A stretch of 64,000 nucleotides of DNA. Source: Kosmotoga olearia TBF 19.5.1 (GTDB taxonomy: Bacteria; Thermotogota; Thermotogae; Petrotogales; Kosmotogaceae). This document shows, piece after piece, positions 2,671-56,202 of this stretch. The DNA is taken from assembly GCF_000023325.1 (NCBI RefSeq), contig NC_012785.1:1054001-1118000 (forward strand), in the 5' to 3' direction. The position numbers and the translations under genes were made by a program. The notes beneath the pieces are model-generated. The model did no database searches and was not told the DNA's origin. It worked only from the letters and a program-made list of their open reading frames with translations. Positions within the stretch are counted from its first letter, which is position 1, and each line of letters opens with the position of its first letter.

Positions 2671-4002
2671 GTGACAAAGAAACGCGTCATAATAATGGGA
2701 GCTGCCGGAAGAGACTTCCATAATTTCAACACGTATTTTAGAGATAATCCAAATTATGAGGTAGTAGCTTTCACGGCAACACAAATCCCCGGTATCGATG
2801 ACAAGAAATATCCGGCTGAACTTGCCGGCGAACTGTATCCTGATGGGATACCTATCTATTCTGAAGAAAGACTTTTCGACCTTATAAGGGAACACAATAT
2901 CGATGAAGTTGTGCTCTCTTACAGTGATCTTCCTCATCAGTACGTGATGGAAAGAGCCGAAATAGTTCTCGCGGCTGGTGCGGATTTCAAACTGATGGGT
3001 CCAAAGAACACGATGTTGAAATCTTCTAAGCCTGTTATCTCGGTTTGTGCCATTAGGACAGGTTGTGGAAAAAGTCAGACCACCAGAAGGGTTCTCGATA
3101 TCCTCAGAGCCAAGGGTAAGAAAGTCGTTTCTATCAGGCACCCGATGCCTTATGGTGATCTGGTAAAGCAGAAGGTCCAGAGATTTGCAGATTATTCAGA
3201 TCTCGATAAGCACGAATGTACTATTGAAGAGCGTGAAGAATATGAACCTCATATCGACAGAGGTTCTATTATTTACGCTGGTGTTGACTACGAAGCCATT
3301 CTTCGCGAAGCTGAAAAAGAGGATGTTGACGTTATTCTCTGGGACGGCGGAAACAACGATTTCTCCTTCTACAAAACCGATCTTTATATAACCGTTGTTG
3401 ACCCGCACAGGCCCGGTCATGAAATTACATATTACCCCGGAATGGCAAACCTCATTATGGCCGATGTTATTGTTATCAACAAAGAAGAAACGGCAGATCC
3501 AGAAGGCATCGATATAGTCAGGAAGAACATTGCAAAATACAATCCCAATGCCATCGTTATCGATGCAGCTTCACCGCTCATCGTTGAAGATGGAGAGAGT
3601 ATCAAGGGTAAAAGAGTTCTTGTTGTCGAAGATGGACCAACCCTGACTCACGGTGAAATGAGATATGGTGCTGGCTGGGTTGCTGCAAAGAAATATGGCG
3701 CTGCTGAGATAATCGATCCCAGGCCATATGCTGTTGGTTCTATAATCGATACTTACAAGAAGTATAACCATCTTGACCAGATCCTGCCTGCCATGGGTTA
3801 CGGTGAAAAACAGATGAAAGAGCTTGAAGAAACCATAAACAACACGGACGCCGATCTTGTCATAATTGGAACCCCGATAGACCTCAGAAGGGTTATCAAG
3901 ATAAACAAACCTGCTGTGAGGGTAAGATACGAGCTTCAGGAGATTGGTGAGCCAACTCTGGAGCAGGTAATAGATGAGTTCCTGAAAAAGCACAATATCT
4001 GA
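2671..4002 (+). CDS. Cyclic 2,3-diphosphoglycerate synthetase-like GTPase (COG2403)
   Basis: A protein of 443 residues from GTG 2671, behind GGAGGTG. The N-terminal 120 residues form a Rossmann-like domain (VIIMGAAGRDFHNFN at the start). A P-loop domain follows, with TGCGKSQTTR near residue 130 and LWDGGNNDFSF near 225. This layout matches the family named after the Methanothermus enzyme that cyclises 2,3-diphosphoglycerate into the thermolyte cDPG. Bacterial homologues are often labelled only as GTPases, and cDPG synthesis here is an inference. The gene has its own promoter and a strong terminator, so it is monocistronic. Confidence 0.82.
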   Translation: MTKKRVIIMGAAGRDFHNFNTYFRDNPNYEVVAFTATQIPGIDDKKYPAELAGELYPDGIPIYSEERLFDLIREHNIDEVVLSYSDLPHQYVMERAEIVLAAGADFKLMGPKNTMLKSSKPVISVCAIRTGCGKSQTTRRVLDILRAKGKKVVSIRHPMPYGDLVKQKVQRFADYSDLDKHECTIEEREEYEPHIDRGSIIYAGVDYEAILREAEKEDVDVILWDGGNNDFSFYKTDLYITVVDPHRPGHEITYYPGMANLIMADVIVINKEETADPEGIDIVRKNIAKYNPNAIVIDAASPLIVEDGESIKGKRVLVVEDGPTLTHGEMRYGAGWVAAKKYGAAEIIDPRPYAVGSIIDTYKKYNHLDQILPAMGYGEKQMKELEETINNTDADLVIIGTPIDLRRVIKINKPAVRVRYELQEIGEPTLEQVIDEFLKKHNI

Positions 4003-4018
4003 GTTTGAATAAAAAGAA

Positions 4019-4049
4019 TCAAGCCGGGAGGTCATCTCCCGGCTTTTTT
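4019..4049 (+). terminator. Rho-independent terminator (possibly bidirectional)
   Basis: AAGCCGGGAG-GTCAT-CTCCCGGCTT followed by TTTTT. It lies 17 bp after the synthetase stop. A-rich sequence on the left could also let it serve the convergent gene ending at 4071. Confidence 0.9.
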
Positions 4050-4070
4050 ATGAGCACTGTTTGGTGTTTC

Positions 4071-4805
4071 TTAATCCAGAGTGTTTTCATCAATGGGTTT
4101 TAAATTTTTTCCATCGAAAATAAGTTCGTAGTCGAAGATCTGAGGTAAGAACGTTCTATATTCGTGTTGCCCTTTCATTGACATAAAAACAGCGTCTATT
4201 AACTTATAAGCGTGTATTTGCTCTCCCTTTCTTGTGAACTTATAAACTGGTGTGTAAAAGCTGTTGAAGACAATCGGGGCAACGATCCTTCCACCTGAAC
4301 TTTTGAGTTGTTCTATCCATTGAACGGGAAGGGTTTCGCAAGCAACCATAGAGATTATGGCATCGTAAGGAGCCTTCAAACTATATCCCTCAAATCCGTC
4401 TCCACTGATGCAGGTAATATTTTCAACCCCATAACGTTCGAAATTCCTTAGTGCTATTTCATGGAGTTCACGATTGTACTCGATGCTAATGACTTCGCCA
4501 TCTTTGAGAATTTTGGCGAGTATTAGAGTGGCATATCCTGTTCCTGTCCCTATGTCAAGCACTTTCTCATTTCCTGTGAGATTTAGATTTTGAATCATTT
4601 GGACAACAAGGGATGGTTGGGTTGAGGTGCTGATGATGAACCCGTTCTTTTCTGCGGAAGGAAGGACTTCATCGATGTGCGCGAGGAATTTATATTTCGG
4701 CAGGACAAACTCGCTTCTGTCAATTTCGCACATCGCCTGATAAATTCTTGAATCTCTTATGATGTTCCTCTGGAGCAGTTCATCGGCGAGGTCACGGGAC
4801 TTCAT
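4071..4805 (-). CDS. pcm: Protein-L-isoaspartate O-methyltransferase
   Basis: SAM-dependent methyltransferase that starts repair of isoaspartyl damage in proteins. The 244 residues contain the family hallmarks: ISTSTQPSLVVQMIQNL before the core, motif I VLDIGTGTGYATLILA near residue 83, and acidic motif SIEYNRELHEIA. The SGDGFEG and VACETLPVQWIEQL segments follow in order. The last 50 residues extend beyond the usual 210-220-residue catalytic domain. The ATG is weakly supported by GAGGAATG 13 bases upstream. It stands alone and converges on the preceding gene. Confidence 0.9.
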   Translation of the reverse strand: MKSRDLADELLQRNIIRDSRIYQAMCEIDRSEFVLPKYKFLAHIDEVLPSAEKNGFIISTSTQPSLVVQMIQNLNLTGNEKVLDIGTGTGYATLILAKILKDGEVISIEYNRELHEIALRNFERYGVENITCISGDGFEGYSLKAPYDAIISMVACETLPVQWIEQLKSSGGRIVAPIVFNSFYTPVYKFTRKGEQIHAYKLIDAVFMSMKGQHEYRTFLPQIFDYELIFDGKNLKPIDENTLD

Positions 4806-5434
4806 GATGTTTAGGCATTCCTCGTATTATTAATGAAATGCCAGTACCTCCCTTCTTCGGATTTTTAGCCAATTTTTGTTTTTTTTTGTCTTCTTTCACG
4901 TATTAGTGTGAGTCCCTTACGAAGTATAACAGTTATATTCTTTTTTCACAGCAGAGTGTTATCTCTAATCAGGCAGTAATTTGCCAAGTCAATATCAAAA
5001 TCTCATTTGTGAAAACCCGCTTCGGTGATGCAAACGCTTTTTTCCGATATAAAATAATTCGGTCGATTTTGTTAGTAATTCACGGTGATTTTTATCCAAT
5101 GTTATAGCTCAATCGTATGATATTTCCACGAGGGAAACTATACAAGAAAAGCGAAGGAAACGCTAAAAAAACCGATTTACAGTGAGATATTACCGAATTT
5201 TGAGGATTACAAGTAAAAAAAGCAGTTATTCTCGTGAATAATCACGTTTATACACTCTTTGGCGATATTGCCCTCGAATTGTACAATAAAGATGTCAAAC
5301 GAATGAGATATACTTTAGAACAATAAATAAGAAAGATTCTATCAATTACATCAAACGATTAAATTCAAAACAACGCATGGAAGTAGAAGGCAGTAATCTG
5401 TAAGTAAGAATACATAATCTATTTAAAGGGGGTA
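4806..5434. other. AT-rich intergenic region with degenerate coding-like fragments
   Basis: No intact gene is visible. Short plus-strand open stretches look protein-like but are broken. One reads EGNYTRKAKETLKK and shifts frame at a run of seven A (5165-5171). The next frame reads PIYSEILPNFEDYK and stops at 5213. A third runs from about 5204 to 5326 and contains VKKAVILVNNHVYTLFGD. They could be the remains of one small gene. The alternative is chance open frames in AT-rich DNA. Confidence 0.35.
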
Positions 5435-5440
5435 ATGAGA

Positions 5441-5515
5441 ATGATACCAACACCGATGGGAAGTCCAGGACTTTGGGCAGTACCTGTGGAAGACGAGGAA
5501 TTGGGGGAAGTTTAG
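5441..5515 (+). CDS. Putative 24-residue small peptide
   Basis: A short open frame begins at ATG 5441, eight bases after AAAGGGGG, and encodes MIPTPMGSPGLWAVP followed by an acidic tail (VEDEELGEV). An ATG at 5435 is in frame but too close to the ribosome-binding site. A strong hairpin terminator on the same strand starts 27 bases after the stop. The terminator lies inside the 3' end of a gene on the other strand and would have no purpose without a plus-strand transcript. I do not recognise the peptide. It has no cysteines and no signal peptide, and no modification enzyme lies next to it. Confidence 0.5.
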   Translation: MIPTPMGSPGLWAVPVEDEELGEV

Positions 5516-5538
5516 TATAAGAATCTGAAATGTGGAAG

Positions 5539-7239
5539 TTATACGGGGCTGTGCCCCGTTTGTTTTTTTAGTAACTCTTCGAGGATTTCAGACCAGATCT
5601 CTTCGAAACCAAGCTCGTAAGGTTGCGGAATCCCTTCTTTTGCACACAATTCGAGGTTCTCGATTATTTCTTTTCTTACAATATCTTTTCCGTGGTCGTG
5701 GATATATTTCAGCGCTTCGTATGAGGACCAGCCTTTTCTGTACGGACGATCGGTCGTCAGAGCGTCGTAGATATCCGCAATCGCGACTATCTGGGCGAGT
5801 TTAGGTATTTCCTCTCCTTTTAAGCTCAAGGGATAGCCGGAGCCATCCAGGCGTTCGTGGTGCAGCATAACCACGTCCACTATCTCTTTGGGAAAGTCCT
5901 GCTTCTTCAAATACTGAGCCCCGATCAGGGGATGTTGTTCAATGATCGCTCTTTCTTCAGGGGTTAGCTTTGTTGGTTTGTTCAGTATTTCGGAAGGTAT
6001 TTCGATCTTCCCGAAGTCGTGGAACATAGCACCTACGGAAAGATAGAAAAGGTGGGTGCGGTCTATTCCGAGTTTTCTGGCGATTCTGTGGGAGATCATG
6101 GAGACCCTGAGCGTGTGCGAAGCTGTGTAGTTGTCCTTCTTTCTGAGTTCCTCGATGAGTTCTTTAAAAATAAGCGCGATACTTGCAAGAAGGTTATTGA
6201 GAAGATCTTCTATATGCGGAGAACTGACTTTATAGACGTGCAAGAGTTCAAATGCTTTTATTGCGCTTTTAAGGCCTTCAAAGTTTTTACCCTCGCTGTT
6301 TTTTATCAATGCATCGAGAATGAGTGTTTCGCCTTTCATATAGTTGTTTATCTTATATTCAGGGGAACTTATTAACTTTTCATGATAAATTTTCGCGCGC
6401 TGGATGTTTCCTTTCATAACGTAGTAATGTCCCAAAAAAATGTGAGAAGACCAATCACTTATCCACTCTTTTCGTGAATTGAGTTCTTCTAGTTTTTGAA
6501 CAACCATGGCAGCTTTTTTATAGTCAGATAATTGCAAAAATATCTTCAATTTCAGTGTTTCACGATATCCAACTATAGTTGGATAAGCATTATCATCGAT
6601 TTTTTCAAGTATATTTATGGCCGATTTATATCTTCTTTTACTGTAATAATAGTTGGCCAGATTGATGAAGATTATCAATTTTTTTGTTTCAGTATCTGCG
6701 TATTTTAGCGCCGCGAAATAATATCTTTCGGGATCACCTTCCTGAAAGAATTGAGCGATAACGAGAGCCAGACCGTTGTAGTATTCGAAACCAAAATCCT
6801 CCGGGATGAATTTTTCTAATCGAACCAGCTTGTTATAGTTTTTCAGGGTTTCTGCCGTATCCCCGGTATCGAATGCGGTCATCATCTGGAGAAAACGTAG
6901 TTTGATAACATACAGAAGTTTCTCATCTTCATTCTTTATAAATTCCTCAGCCAACGACAAAATCAATTTTGCTCTTCCATCAAGGTTTCTTCTGACAAAA
7001 AAATACGCGAGTTCATAGATTCCTTCCAGTAATTGTTCTTTTGTAAAATTTTCTATGATGGGTTTTTTTGCAAAAGCTTTTGTTATGGCAAAGTCAAGTG
7101 CCACGGCAAAATTGAACGATTCATCATTTAAATCGTTCTTTTCCAAAATCTTTTTAAGTTCGTTTTGTATTTCATCGGCGTGCTCGTAATCAAACTTTTT
7201 TGCCAGACGTCTTAGTCGCTTCAGTATATTTTCAGTCAT
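5539..7239 (-). CDS. HD-GYP domain protein with helical-repeat N-terminus
   Basis: Probable cyclic-di-GMP phosphodiesterase of 566 residues. Residues 1-350 are helical with TPR-like pairs (for example AALKYADTETKKLIIFINLA and YYYSKRRYKSAINILEKI) and no membrane segment. The C-terminal 190 residues are HD-GYP: HTLRVSMISHRIARKLG, HDFGK with the metal-binding HD pair, IEQHPLIGAQYL, and HHERLDGSGYP with the GYP signature. Start ATG 7239 follows GAGGAG. The TPR-like part suggests sensing through protein contacts. It is monocistronic, and its 3' end is shared with the convergent small-peptide terminator. Confidence 0.88.
   Translation of the reverse strand: MTENILKRLRRLAKKFDYEHADEIQNELKKILEKNDLNDESFNFAVALDFAITKAFAKKPIIENFTKEQLLEGIYELAYFFVRRNLDGRAKLILSLAEEFIKNEDEKLLYVIKLRFLQMMTAFDTGDTAETLKNYNKLVRLEKFIPEDFGFEYYNGLALVIAQFFQEGDPERYYFAALKYADTETKKLIIFINLANYYYSKRRYKSAINILEKIDDNAYPTIVGYRETLKLKIFLQLSDYKKAAMVVQKLEELNSRKEWISDWSSHIFLGHYYVMKGNIQRAKIYHEKLISSPEYKINNYMKGETLILDALIKNSEGKNFEGLKSAIKAFELLHVYKVSSPHIEDLLNNLLASIALIFKELIEELRKKDNYTASHTLRVSMISHRIARKLGIDRTHLFYLSVGAMFHDFGKIEIPSEILNKPTKLTPEERAIIEQHPLIGAQYLKKQDFPKEIVDVVMLHHERLDGSGYPLSLKGEEIPKLAQIVAIADIYDALTTDRPYRKGWSSYEALKYIHDHGKDIVRKEIIENLELCAKEGIPQPYELGFEEIWSEILEELLKKQTGHSPV
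5543..5568 (+). terminator. Rho-independent terminator of the small-peptide unit
   Basis: ACGGGGC-TGT-GCCCCGT followed by TTGTTTTTTT. It overlaps the last codons of the HD-GYP gene on the minus strand, and its T run is on the plus strand. Confidence 0.8.
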
Positions 7240-7439
7240 ATTTTCTCCTCAAGAATATGTTACCATGAAAACCGCTTTAAGAAGAACCCTCTAAGCGTAC
7301 TAAATTTTGAATCAACGCTTAATATTTTCACACAATCGATTGATATGGAAAATATCCACTTATTTTATTATATTGGGTTCAATGGTTTGTATGTAGGGTA
7401 TCTATTTAGTCATTTTCGCTATTGGTTATTGTTCAGAAA

Positions 7440-7467
7440 AGTAAAAACCAGAGAACCTTCTCTGGTT
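7440..7467 (-). terminator. Terminator after the tldD-tldE operon
   Basis: On the minus strand AACCAGAGAA-GG-TTCTCTGGTT is followed by TTTAC. It lies about 40 bp past the TldE stop. Confidence 0.7.
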
Positions 7468-7506
7468 CCCTGGTTCTCCGGTTTCCTATATTATTTTCTT
7501 TTGTTG

Positions 7507-55541: not shown

Positions 55542-56202
55542 GTCTCGGTGTGCCCGGCATGACATACAACTATAGGGTGAAAGTCCCGAATGCGGGGAGC
55601 GAGATAAGCATTAGCTGAGGGCAAGGGTGTCACTGGTAACGGTGAATCTGAAGGAAGCCTAAGGCAAAATCTGGAACTGAACGAAAGTGAACCAGTGTTG
55701 GCCGGTAGAGAGGGTAACCTTGCCGAGAATGGGTAAGCCCGAGCTCCAACTCTACAGGTTTGGATGGCAGGATTCGGATGAAAGCTGTATGTCTTACCCG
55801 GGGAAGTCCTCACTCGTCCCAAAATGGGTAAGCCGGAACAAGGGGAGACCCAAGGACTGGTGAAGCGGAGGAGGATGGCAGACGAACCCGTAGTAGTGTT
55901 GAACCTCTCTGAAAGGAGAAGGGACTATCGCCTTGAGCGATGGGGGTAACAGGAACCGAAAGGGCCTGTTACTTGCGAAGGGGGGAAGGATTGAGGAAAT
56001 GGCACAAAGGGAAGCGAGTATAACAGGAGTCCGTAACGGAGGCTGAAATGCTAACGACGGTTGAGAATAGCCGGGGCAGGTAAGTAACCATTGCAAAGAT
56101 AGGAAGATTCCCGGGGGGGGGGTAAAGAATCCAATCTTTGGATGGGAGAAGAAACCGATTCTGTTATATGCGACTTATCCGGAAGGCCATACAGGAGGAA
56201 AC

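Follow-up and report, generated by a model that had tools for sequence, protein, structure and literature searches.

A short reading frame convergent with a TPR-HD-GYP gene

The DNA analysed here (the window) is a stretch of 64,000 nucleotides, positions 1054001-1118000 of a genome that consists of a single contig of 2,302,126 bases. It carries a reading frame of 24 codons that converges on an opposite-strand gene whose predicted product combines TPR repeats with an HD-GYP domain, and which we treat as a candidate receptor gene (Table 1). An earlier note on this DNA had described the frame, a Shine-Dalgarno sequence at 8-base spacing and a terminator 27 bases after the stop, and all three are confirmed: the frame starts with the ATG at 5441 and ends with the stop codon at 5513-5515, the 8-base spacer reads TAATGAGA, and the terminator consists of the hairpin ACGGGGC-TGT-GCCCCGT (5543-5559) followed by TTGTTTTTTT, overlapping the 3' end of the gene at 5539-7239 (-). 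The description of the gene as isolated does not hold, as the peptide gene is tied to this convergent receptor gene. The note further attributed the terminator to a plus-strand transcript with the peptide as its only candidate product; more precisely, the terminator ends a peptide transcript that has a conserved putative promoter, and we infer that this transcript starts near 5294, with a leader of about 147 nt.

Table 1. Positions of the features at the peptide locus (window coordinates)
Feature	Position	Strand	Remarks
Peptide gene, 24 aa, MIPTPMGSPGLWAVPVEDEELGEV	5441..5515	+	Orthologues at the same site in 3 genomes; core pN/pS 0.43
Shine-Dalgarno sequence AAAGGGGG	5425..5432	+	Part of the invariant block AAAGGGGGTAATGWGAATG
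Motif PGLWAVP, ligand-like	5465..5485	+	Common to sister-genus peptides and the C-terminal tail beside the paralogous receptor
Intrinsic terminator of the peptide transcript	5543..5569	+	Lies within the receptor gene, at its 3' end; hairpin and T-run at the same site in G002, G006 and G008
Putative sigma-70 promoter, TTGGCG-17-TACAAT	5259..5287	+	-10 TACAAT/TAGAAT aligned in relatives; the -35 position holds TTGAAT in G002 and G008
Leader block TGTCAAACGAATGAG	5293..5307	+	Predicted 5' end of the transcript; identical in G000 (the window's genome), G002, G006 and G008
Conserved upstream block AGCTCAATCGTATGATAT	5106..5123	+	Related to the leader block at 5293; aligned in 4 genomes
Receptor candidate, three-helix bundle + 7 TPR + HD-GYP, 566 aa	5539..7239	-	Pfam HD_5, E 4.9e-37; AlphaFold pLDDT 86.5
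N-terminal part of the receptor: three-helix bundle at residues 2-56, then seven helix pairs at 67-333	6205..7239	-	AlphaFold pLDDT 90.5; best structural matches Rap-pheromone complexes, Z 21.3, with LGN nearly tied at 20.2
Receptor HD-GYP domain (residues 362-518)	5686..6156	-	Metal and GYP residues kept; 4mcw, Z 21.2

Taken alone, the sequence of the window makes a weak to modest case for the peptide. Fourteen of its 697 ATG-initiated ORFs of 15-60 aa have a Shine-Dalgarno sequence comparable to that of the peptide ORF, and the stretch 4000-7500 contains six terminator-like sites against a shuffled mean of 2.7 (about twice expectation). A Pfam scan of the 24-aa protein matched no family. A start block of the AAAGGGGGTAATGWGAATG type also precedes groEL in the same genome, and a second AAAGGGGGTAGTGTGAATG in this genome and its relatives, considered as a second peptide gene, was rejected, being the groEL start. 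The frequency of comparable Shine-Dalgarno sequences might suggest a chance ORF in front of an unrelated terminator, yet this is contradicted by conservation and by all the comparative results given below, and we attach practically no weight to it. The ORF stands above chance because three relatives share its start block, reading frame, motif and terminator.

A ThiF/MoeB-like ORF at 1252-2521 of the window is overlapped by a short ORF which by eye has a ThiS-like ending.

Conservation of the peptide within the family

At the orthologous loci of three Kosmotoga-type relatives (G002, G008 and G006), AAAGGGGGTAATGWGAATG is followed by MLMMGPGMWQIPDEEEEFDPT, MFTVLMGPGMWVFPDDDDKLED and MFTVLMGPGMWTFPDDDDKLED respectively and then by the hairpin and T-run, and in each the peptide gene converges on a receptor orthologue. 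Start block, frame, motif and terminator are consequently retained in all four Kosmotoga-type genomes (the window's own included). The neighbour on the far side differs, being a PCMT-type methyltransferase gene in the window and an alpha/beta-hydrolase-like gene (by eye) in the relatives. In the DNA search, the only rows at the orthologous site came from G002 and G008 (query 46-123) and from contig C25 of G006 (query 46-64); most of the others were short AT-rich chance matches. A protein search of 61 genomes returned, besides the query, only chance-level rows, one of which (G002) coincided with the DNA match. The rows in G039, G012, G047 and contig C120 of G008 were chance frames within other sequence, and 41-aa frames in G056 (four copies), G038 and G044 were rejected as orthologues, being 16S rRNA. 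A longer ORF starting in the leader was also rejected, since only G002 allows uninterrupted reading from the leader ATG to the end of the peptide, stops closing the frame in the other three genomes.

A profile of the four Kosmotoga-type peptides, searched against 103 genomes of the phylum at E up to 1, gave 46 rows. Forty-three of these fall at one type of locus, the slot convergent with the receptor gene, in 15 of the 17 genomes of the family; the three off-locus rows (one each in G009, G043 and G064) look like chance. Outside the family, the same 103 genomes at the same threshold yielded no relative of the peptide except two chance-level rows. These 15 genomes, among them that of the window, are also the ones with a full-length receptor orthologue; the remaining two (G004, and G015, which is 78% complete) have neither a peptide hit nor a full-length receptor.

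In the two sister genera the slot is occupied by two types of peptide gene. The first is an ORF of only 10-11 codons (MWK[IV]P plus an acidic tail), found as MWKIPEEDDH, MWKIPEEEDH, MWKIPEEDEH, MWKIPEEEEPH/Q and MWKVPDDEEE, in most cases behind a GGAGG-type Shine-Dalgarno sequence. It is present in ten of the 11 receptor-bearing genomes of these genera; in the eleventh (G011) the contig begins too late to tell. The second type, of 48-50 codons, codes for a signal peptide (by eye), directly followed by two GPG[LFM]WK[IV]P repeats with a spacer between them. This gene occurs in one to four tandem copies, four at about 190-base spacing in G012, two in G007, G009 and G013, and one together with a truncated remnant in G010; the corresponding stretch reads N in G001, while in G003 and G014 the peptide array and the receptor lie on different contig ends, the array running over the contig break. 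Signal peptides were assessed by eye, without a prediction program. On this basis the 48-50-codon precursors carry an export signal, and none is seen on the peptide of the window, on the other Kosmotoga peptides (21-24 aa) or on the 10-11-aa ORFs.

The Nei-Gojobori estimate of pN/pS is 0.20 for the 10-aa ORF (45 pairs over 9 codons). Nine secreted precursors, each from a different genome, were compared in 36 pairs and gave 0.195 over their full length and 0.10 over the mature part alone; the 14-codon core of the Kosmotoga peptides gave 0.43 (6 pairs only). Shifted frames gave 0.94-2.0. The G005 precursor, which has a different spacer, was excluded, and since the pairs are not independent the values are descriptive only. 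Judged from these substitution patterns, all peptide types are under purifying selection at the protein level (pN/pS 0.10-0.43). Conservation and codon bias had been named in the earlier note as the test of the peptide, and its frame is kept, with pN/pS at 0.43 when the four copies of the Kosmotoga type are compared and at 0.10-0.20 for the sister-genus peptides. The proposal of a translated small peptide, possibly a regulatory protein or secreted signal, is thereby supported by frame conservation and protein-level selection.

The note had also allowed that the RNA itself might be functional. Since the transcript has a conserved putative promoter and an inferred leader of about 147 nt, the leader may still act in some way as RNA, but the ORF itself is under codon-level selection. 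A stronger form of this idea would make the transcript chiefly a leader element or dual-function RNA, with the ORF secondary. The 15-base leader block is identical in four genomes, and CGAACGACCTATTAT (0-1 mismatch) is found in only four of the 17 family genomes, three Kosmotoga-type and one of a sister genus (locus L142, around 2662), always in the leader upstream of the peptide locus; both observations would suit an RNA. Against it stand the leader alignment, whose consensus fold is negligible (-0.04 kcal/mol), the clear codon-level selection, and the recurrence of the motif as the C-terminal tail of an unrelated protein (see below), and we regard a primarily RNA-based role as very improbable. 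Blocks related to TCAAACGA lie both upstream of and inside the leader (5106-5123, 5293-5307). Allowing up to three mismatches to a 22-base version of the leader block, there are five sites in the 17 family genomes, four of them at the peptide locus; the fifth, in G004 (three mismatches), was rejected, as it lies near unrelated genes where no peptide was found. An Rfam scan of the window returned only a tRNA and a group II intron (RF02001, E 4e-19, at 55630-55792).

The receptor candidate and a second motif-bearing locus

The structure of the receptor candidate was predicted with AlphaFold using 17 homologues (pLDDT 86.5 at full length; 90.5 when residues 1-345 were modelled). Helices at residues 2-14, 18-34 and 39-56 form the predicted three-helix bundle, and seven helix pairs follow from 67 to 333. 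In Pfam scans, TPR hits to the receptor are weak and below the cut-off, while a paralogue (see below) matches TPR_12 (E 1.1e-08); neither protein matched an HTH domain in these scans, and both have a C-terminal HD-GYP domain instead. When the TPR part of the model alone was compared with known structures, Rap proteins took ranks 1-5 (Z 21.3, 21.2, 21.1, 20.7 and 20.2; rmsd 4.0-4.8 over 282-291 aligned residues), and RRNPPA receptors make up 28 of the 50 structural matches listed (6ipx counted by title only). However, the fold match alone is not decisive, because eukaryotic LGN at Z 20.2 is in a near tie with the Rap proteins (20.2-21.3), and in Foldseek's own ranking designed TPRs, LGN and LapB stand ahead of them. 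Profile searches against PDB sequences found no RRNPPA receptor, only HD-GYP proteins and designed or other TPR proteins. We did not count the absence of a family from the structural lists as evidence. Among the matches listed, none from outside the family extends before residue 274 of the receptor.

Rap-phi3T is reported to consist of a three-helix bundle followed by seven TPRs, and a conserved Asn anchors the peptide main chain (PMC11343458). In the receptor candidate, N155, N193, K232 and E304, on the first helices of helix pairs 3, 4, 5 and 7, are invariant in 17 of 17 sequences, and the likewise invariant E130 and E251 lie on second helices. At the other end of the protein, H375, H407, D408, K411, H436, H460, H461, E462, G468-Y469-P470 and D489 are kept in all 17 sequences, D465 being replaced by N in two. 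By its sequence the HD-GYP domain is intact; hydrolysis of c-di-GMP is inferred, with no enzyme data. GGDEF domains number 9 in the window's genome, 14 in G002, 13 in G006 and 18 in G012.

Two genomes, that of the window and G002, contain a second, paralogous receptor, with 41% and 38% identity respectively. Its gene converges on that of a 434-aa barrel-like protein, which carries a signal peptide by eye and matches nothing in Pfam or NCBIfam. The C-terminus of the latter reads RMPGAWLDPSED or YSPGMWLDPEED, ending in PGAWLDPSED in the window's genome and PGMWLDPEED in G002. Barrel-like homologues elsewhere in the phylum (six of six aligned) stop at the last strand, without such a tail. G006 retains a protein of the 434-aa type, with no second full-length receptor among the matches listed; its neighbour is the gene found on the far side of the receptor in G002, and the tail of the protein has become SPDGMWLAGE. 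Matches to PGxWxxP at the DNA level number 19 in the window's genome (18 read, one without a locus) and 12 in G002, and in each genome only the two beside the two receptors are read in frame, close to the C-terminal end of an ORF that has a start codon, and carry an acidic tail. The presence of the motif beside both receptors, and its decay where one receptor has been lost, is in our opinion the strongest argument that the motif may be the receptor's ligand, an argument drawn from sequence comparison; the evidence from the second receptor consists of two genomes and one loss.

Separated by a single ORF from the gene for the second TPR-HD-GYP receptor is a GGDEF gene (locus L153, about 5211-5678; G000:C1:640710-641177). 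In other families of the Thermotogota, the barrel protein has homologues of about 700 aa that by eye include a FecR-like part; the gene behind them, on the same strand, encodes an HD-GYP protein without TPRs (L194, L196-L202, L207 and others), forming a gene pair of surface protein and c-di-GMP phosphodiesterase.

One could imagine that the TPR domain recognises the motif on precursors still awaiting secretion (the barrel-like protein and the peptides with signal sequences), coupling secretion to c-di-GMP as a sensor of export load. The motif does occur on signal-peptide proteins in two settings, and the pairing of barrel-like homologues with non-TPR HD-GYP genes elsewhere in the phylum points in the same direction. 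Such a sensor leaves unexplained the peptide-only genes without a signal peptide and the free 10-aa ORF, however, and we consider it improbable.

A putative peptide signalling system acting on c-di-GMP

The earlier note was right about a real gene product, and the larger finding is the pair of peptide and receptor. Our preferred interpretation, to which we assign a probability of roughly three in four, is a peptide-receptor system like Rap-Phr/RRNPPA with a c-di-GMP phosphodiesterase built in as its output; binding, export and re-import have not been demonstrated. The ORF at 5441-5515 encodes a short peptide in which acidic residues follow the motif PG[LMFA]WxxP, and this peptide would act as ligand of the convergent TPR-HD-GYP protein, for which there are no binding data. 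We infer that the peptide may lie in the TPR groove, where N155, N193, K232 and E304 stand on first helices, and that its binding may alter c-di-GMP hydrolysis. In the sister genera the signal peptide would export the two-repeat form, which after cleavage by signal peptidase would begin with GPG[LFM]WK[IV]P, and this suggests that the peptide there probably acts as a signal outside the cell and is then re-imported, as in Rap-Phr. Export is less certain in the organism of the window, as its peptide lacks a signal peptide, and an intracellular role remains possible in that organism.

The general form of this alternative is an intracellular microprotein, never exported, which binds the TPR-HD-GYP protein and tunes the phosphodiesterase, so reporting its own expression. 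The absence of signal peptides from the 21-24-aa Kosmotoga peptides and the 10-11-aa ORFs is what it would predict, and it is a serious, if on balance unlikely, explanation: in the sister genera the motif directly follows the expected cleavage site of signal-peptide forms, the second ligand is part of a protein with a signal peptide, and a missing leader does not preclude export, the SHP pheromones of streptococci being leaderless peptides of about 20-24 aa that are known to be exported. Returning to the peptide-receptor system, its mechanism is limited by the lack of binding, expression and enzyme data and by the resemblance of TPR folds to one another. A fuller version, held only tentatively and at slightly less than even odds, is that a secreted Trp-Pro pheromone is read by a Rap-like TPR-phosphodiesterase that sets c-di-GMP, with a paralogous channel that uses the cleavable tail of a surface protein, and a 10-codon ligand gene among the shortest conserved bacterial genes. 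With a ligand motif, a receptor groove and a natural case of receptor loss, the claim is directly testable with synthetic peptides; candidate ligands for the TPR domain (residues 1-345) would be SPGLWAVPVEDEE, GPGMWVFPDDDD, GPGLWKIPEG, MWKIPEEDDH and the PGAWLDPSED tail.

This looks like a peptide signalling system acting on c-di-GMP that has so far not been described. Searches of an open-access library showed no TPR-HD-GYP peptide receptor, and nothing relevant on HD-GYP proteins in Kosmotoga or peptide quorum sensing in Mesotoga. In PMC9765709, RRNPPA genes are reported in Firmicutes, all but one genus in Bacilli, and the main text of PMC10075063 and of PMC12700828 contains no occurrence of words beginning with Thermotog, of HD-GYP or of c-di-GMP. 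A survey found Thermotoga maritima to be the only thermophile with peptide quorum sensing, its tables including Kosmotoga olearia, pacifica and arenicorallina (PMC6022435). If our interpretation is correct, TPR-type peptide reception extends well outside the Firmicutes and is wired there to c-di-GMP turnover, not to transcription or a phosphatase, and peptide communication would be present more widely in a phylum for which one survey of thermophiles had only T. maritima.

Four known systems invite comparison. The SHP-Rgg system of streptococci shares with the present one a leaderless peptide of about 20-24 aa, but Rgg carries an HTH domain, which the receptor here does not. As in rcbAB of Vibrio vulnificus, TPR proteins would modulate c-di-GMP, although neither a peptide ligand gene nor a TPR-HD-GYP fusion is stated for rcbAB in the part of the report available (PMC12282931). 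The peptide signalling of Thermotoga maritima is claimed for a member of the same phylum (PMC6022435), whereas relatives of our peptide were found only within the family (103 genomes of the phylum, E up to 1, bar two chance-level rows). Rap-Phr differs from the present system in several ways: here the gene order is convergent, an HD-GYP output is attached and there is no HTH, the phylum lies outside the Firmicutes, the peptides of some species lack a signal peptide, and no Rap-type receptor is recovered by sequence profile. In common with Rap-Phr, on the other hand, are a small peptide gene beside that of a TPR protein, a predicted three-helix bundle with seven TPRs, precursors in the sister genera with a signal peptide (by eye) and duplicated motif units as well as duplicated genes, invariant Asn residues in TPR helices, and the best structural matches, though with LGN nearly tied.
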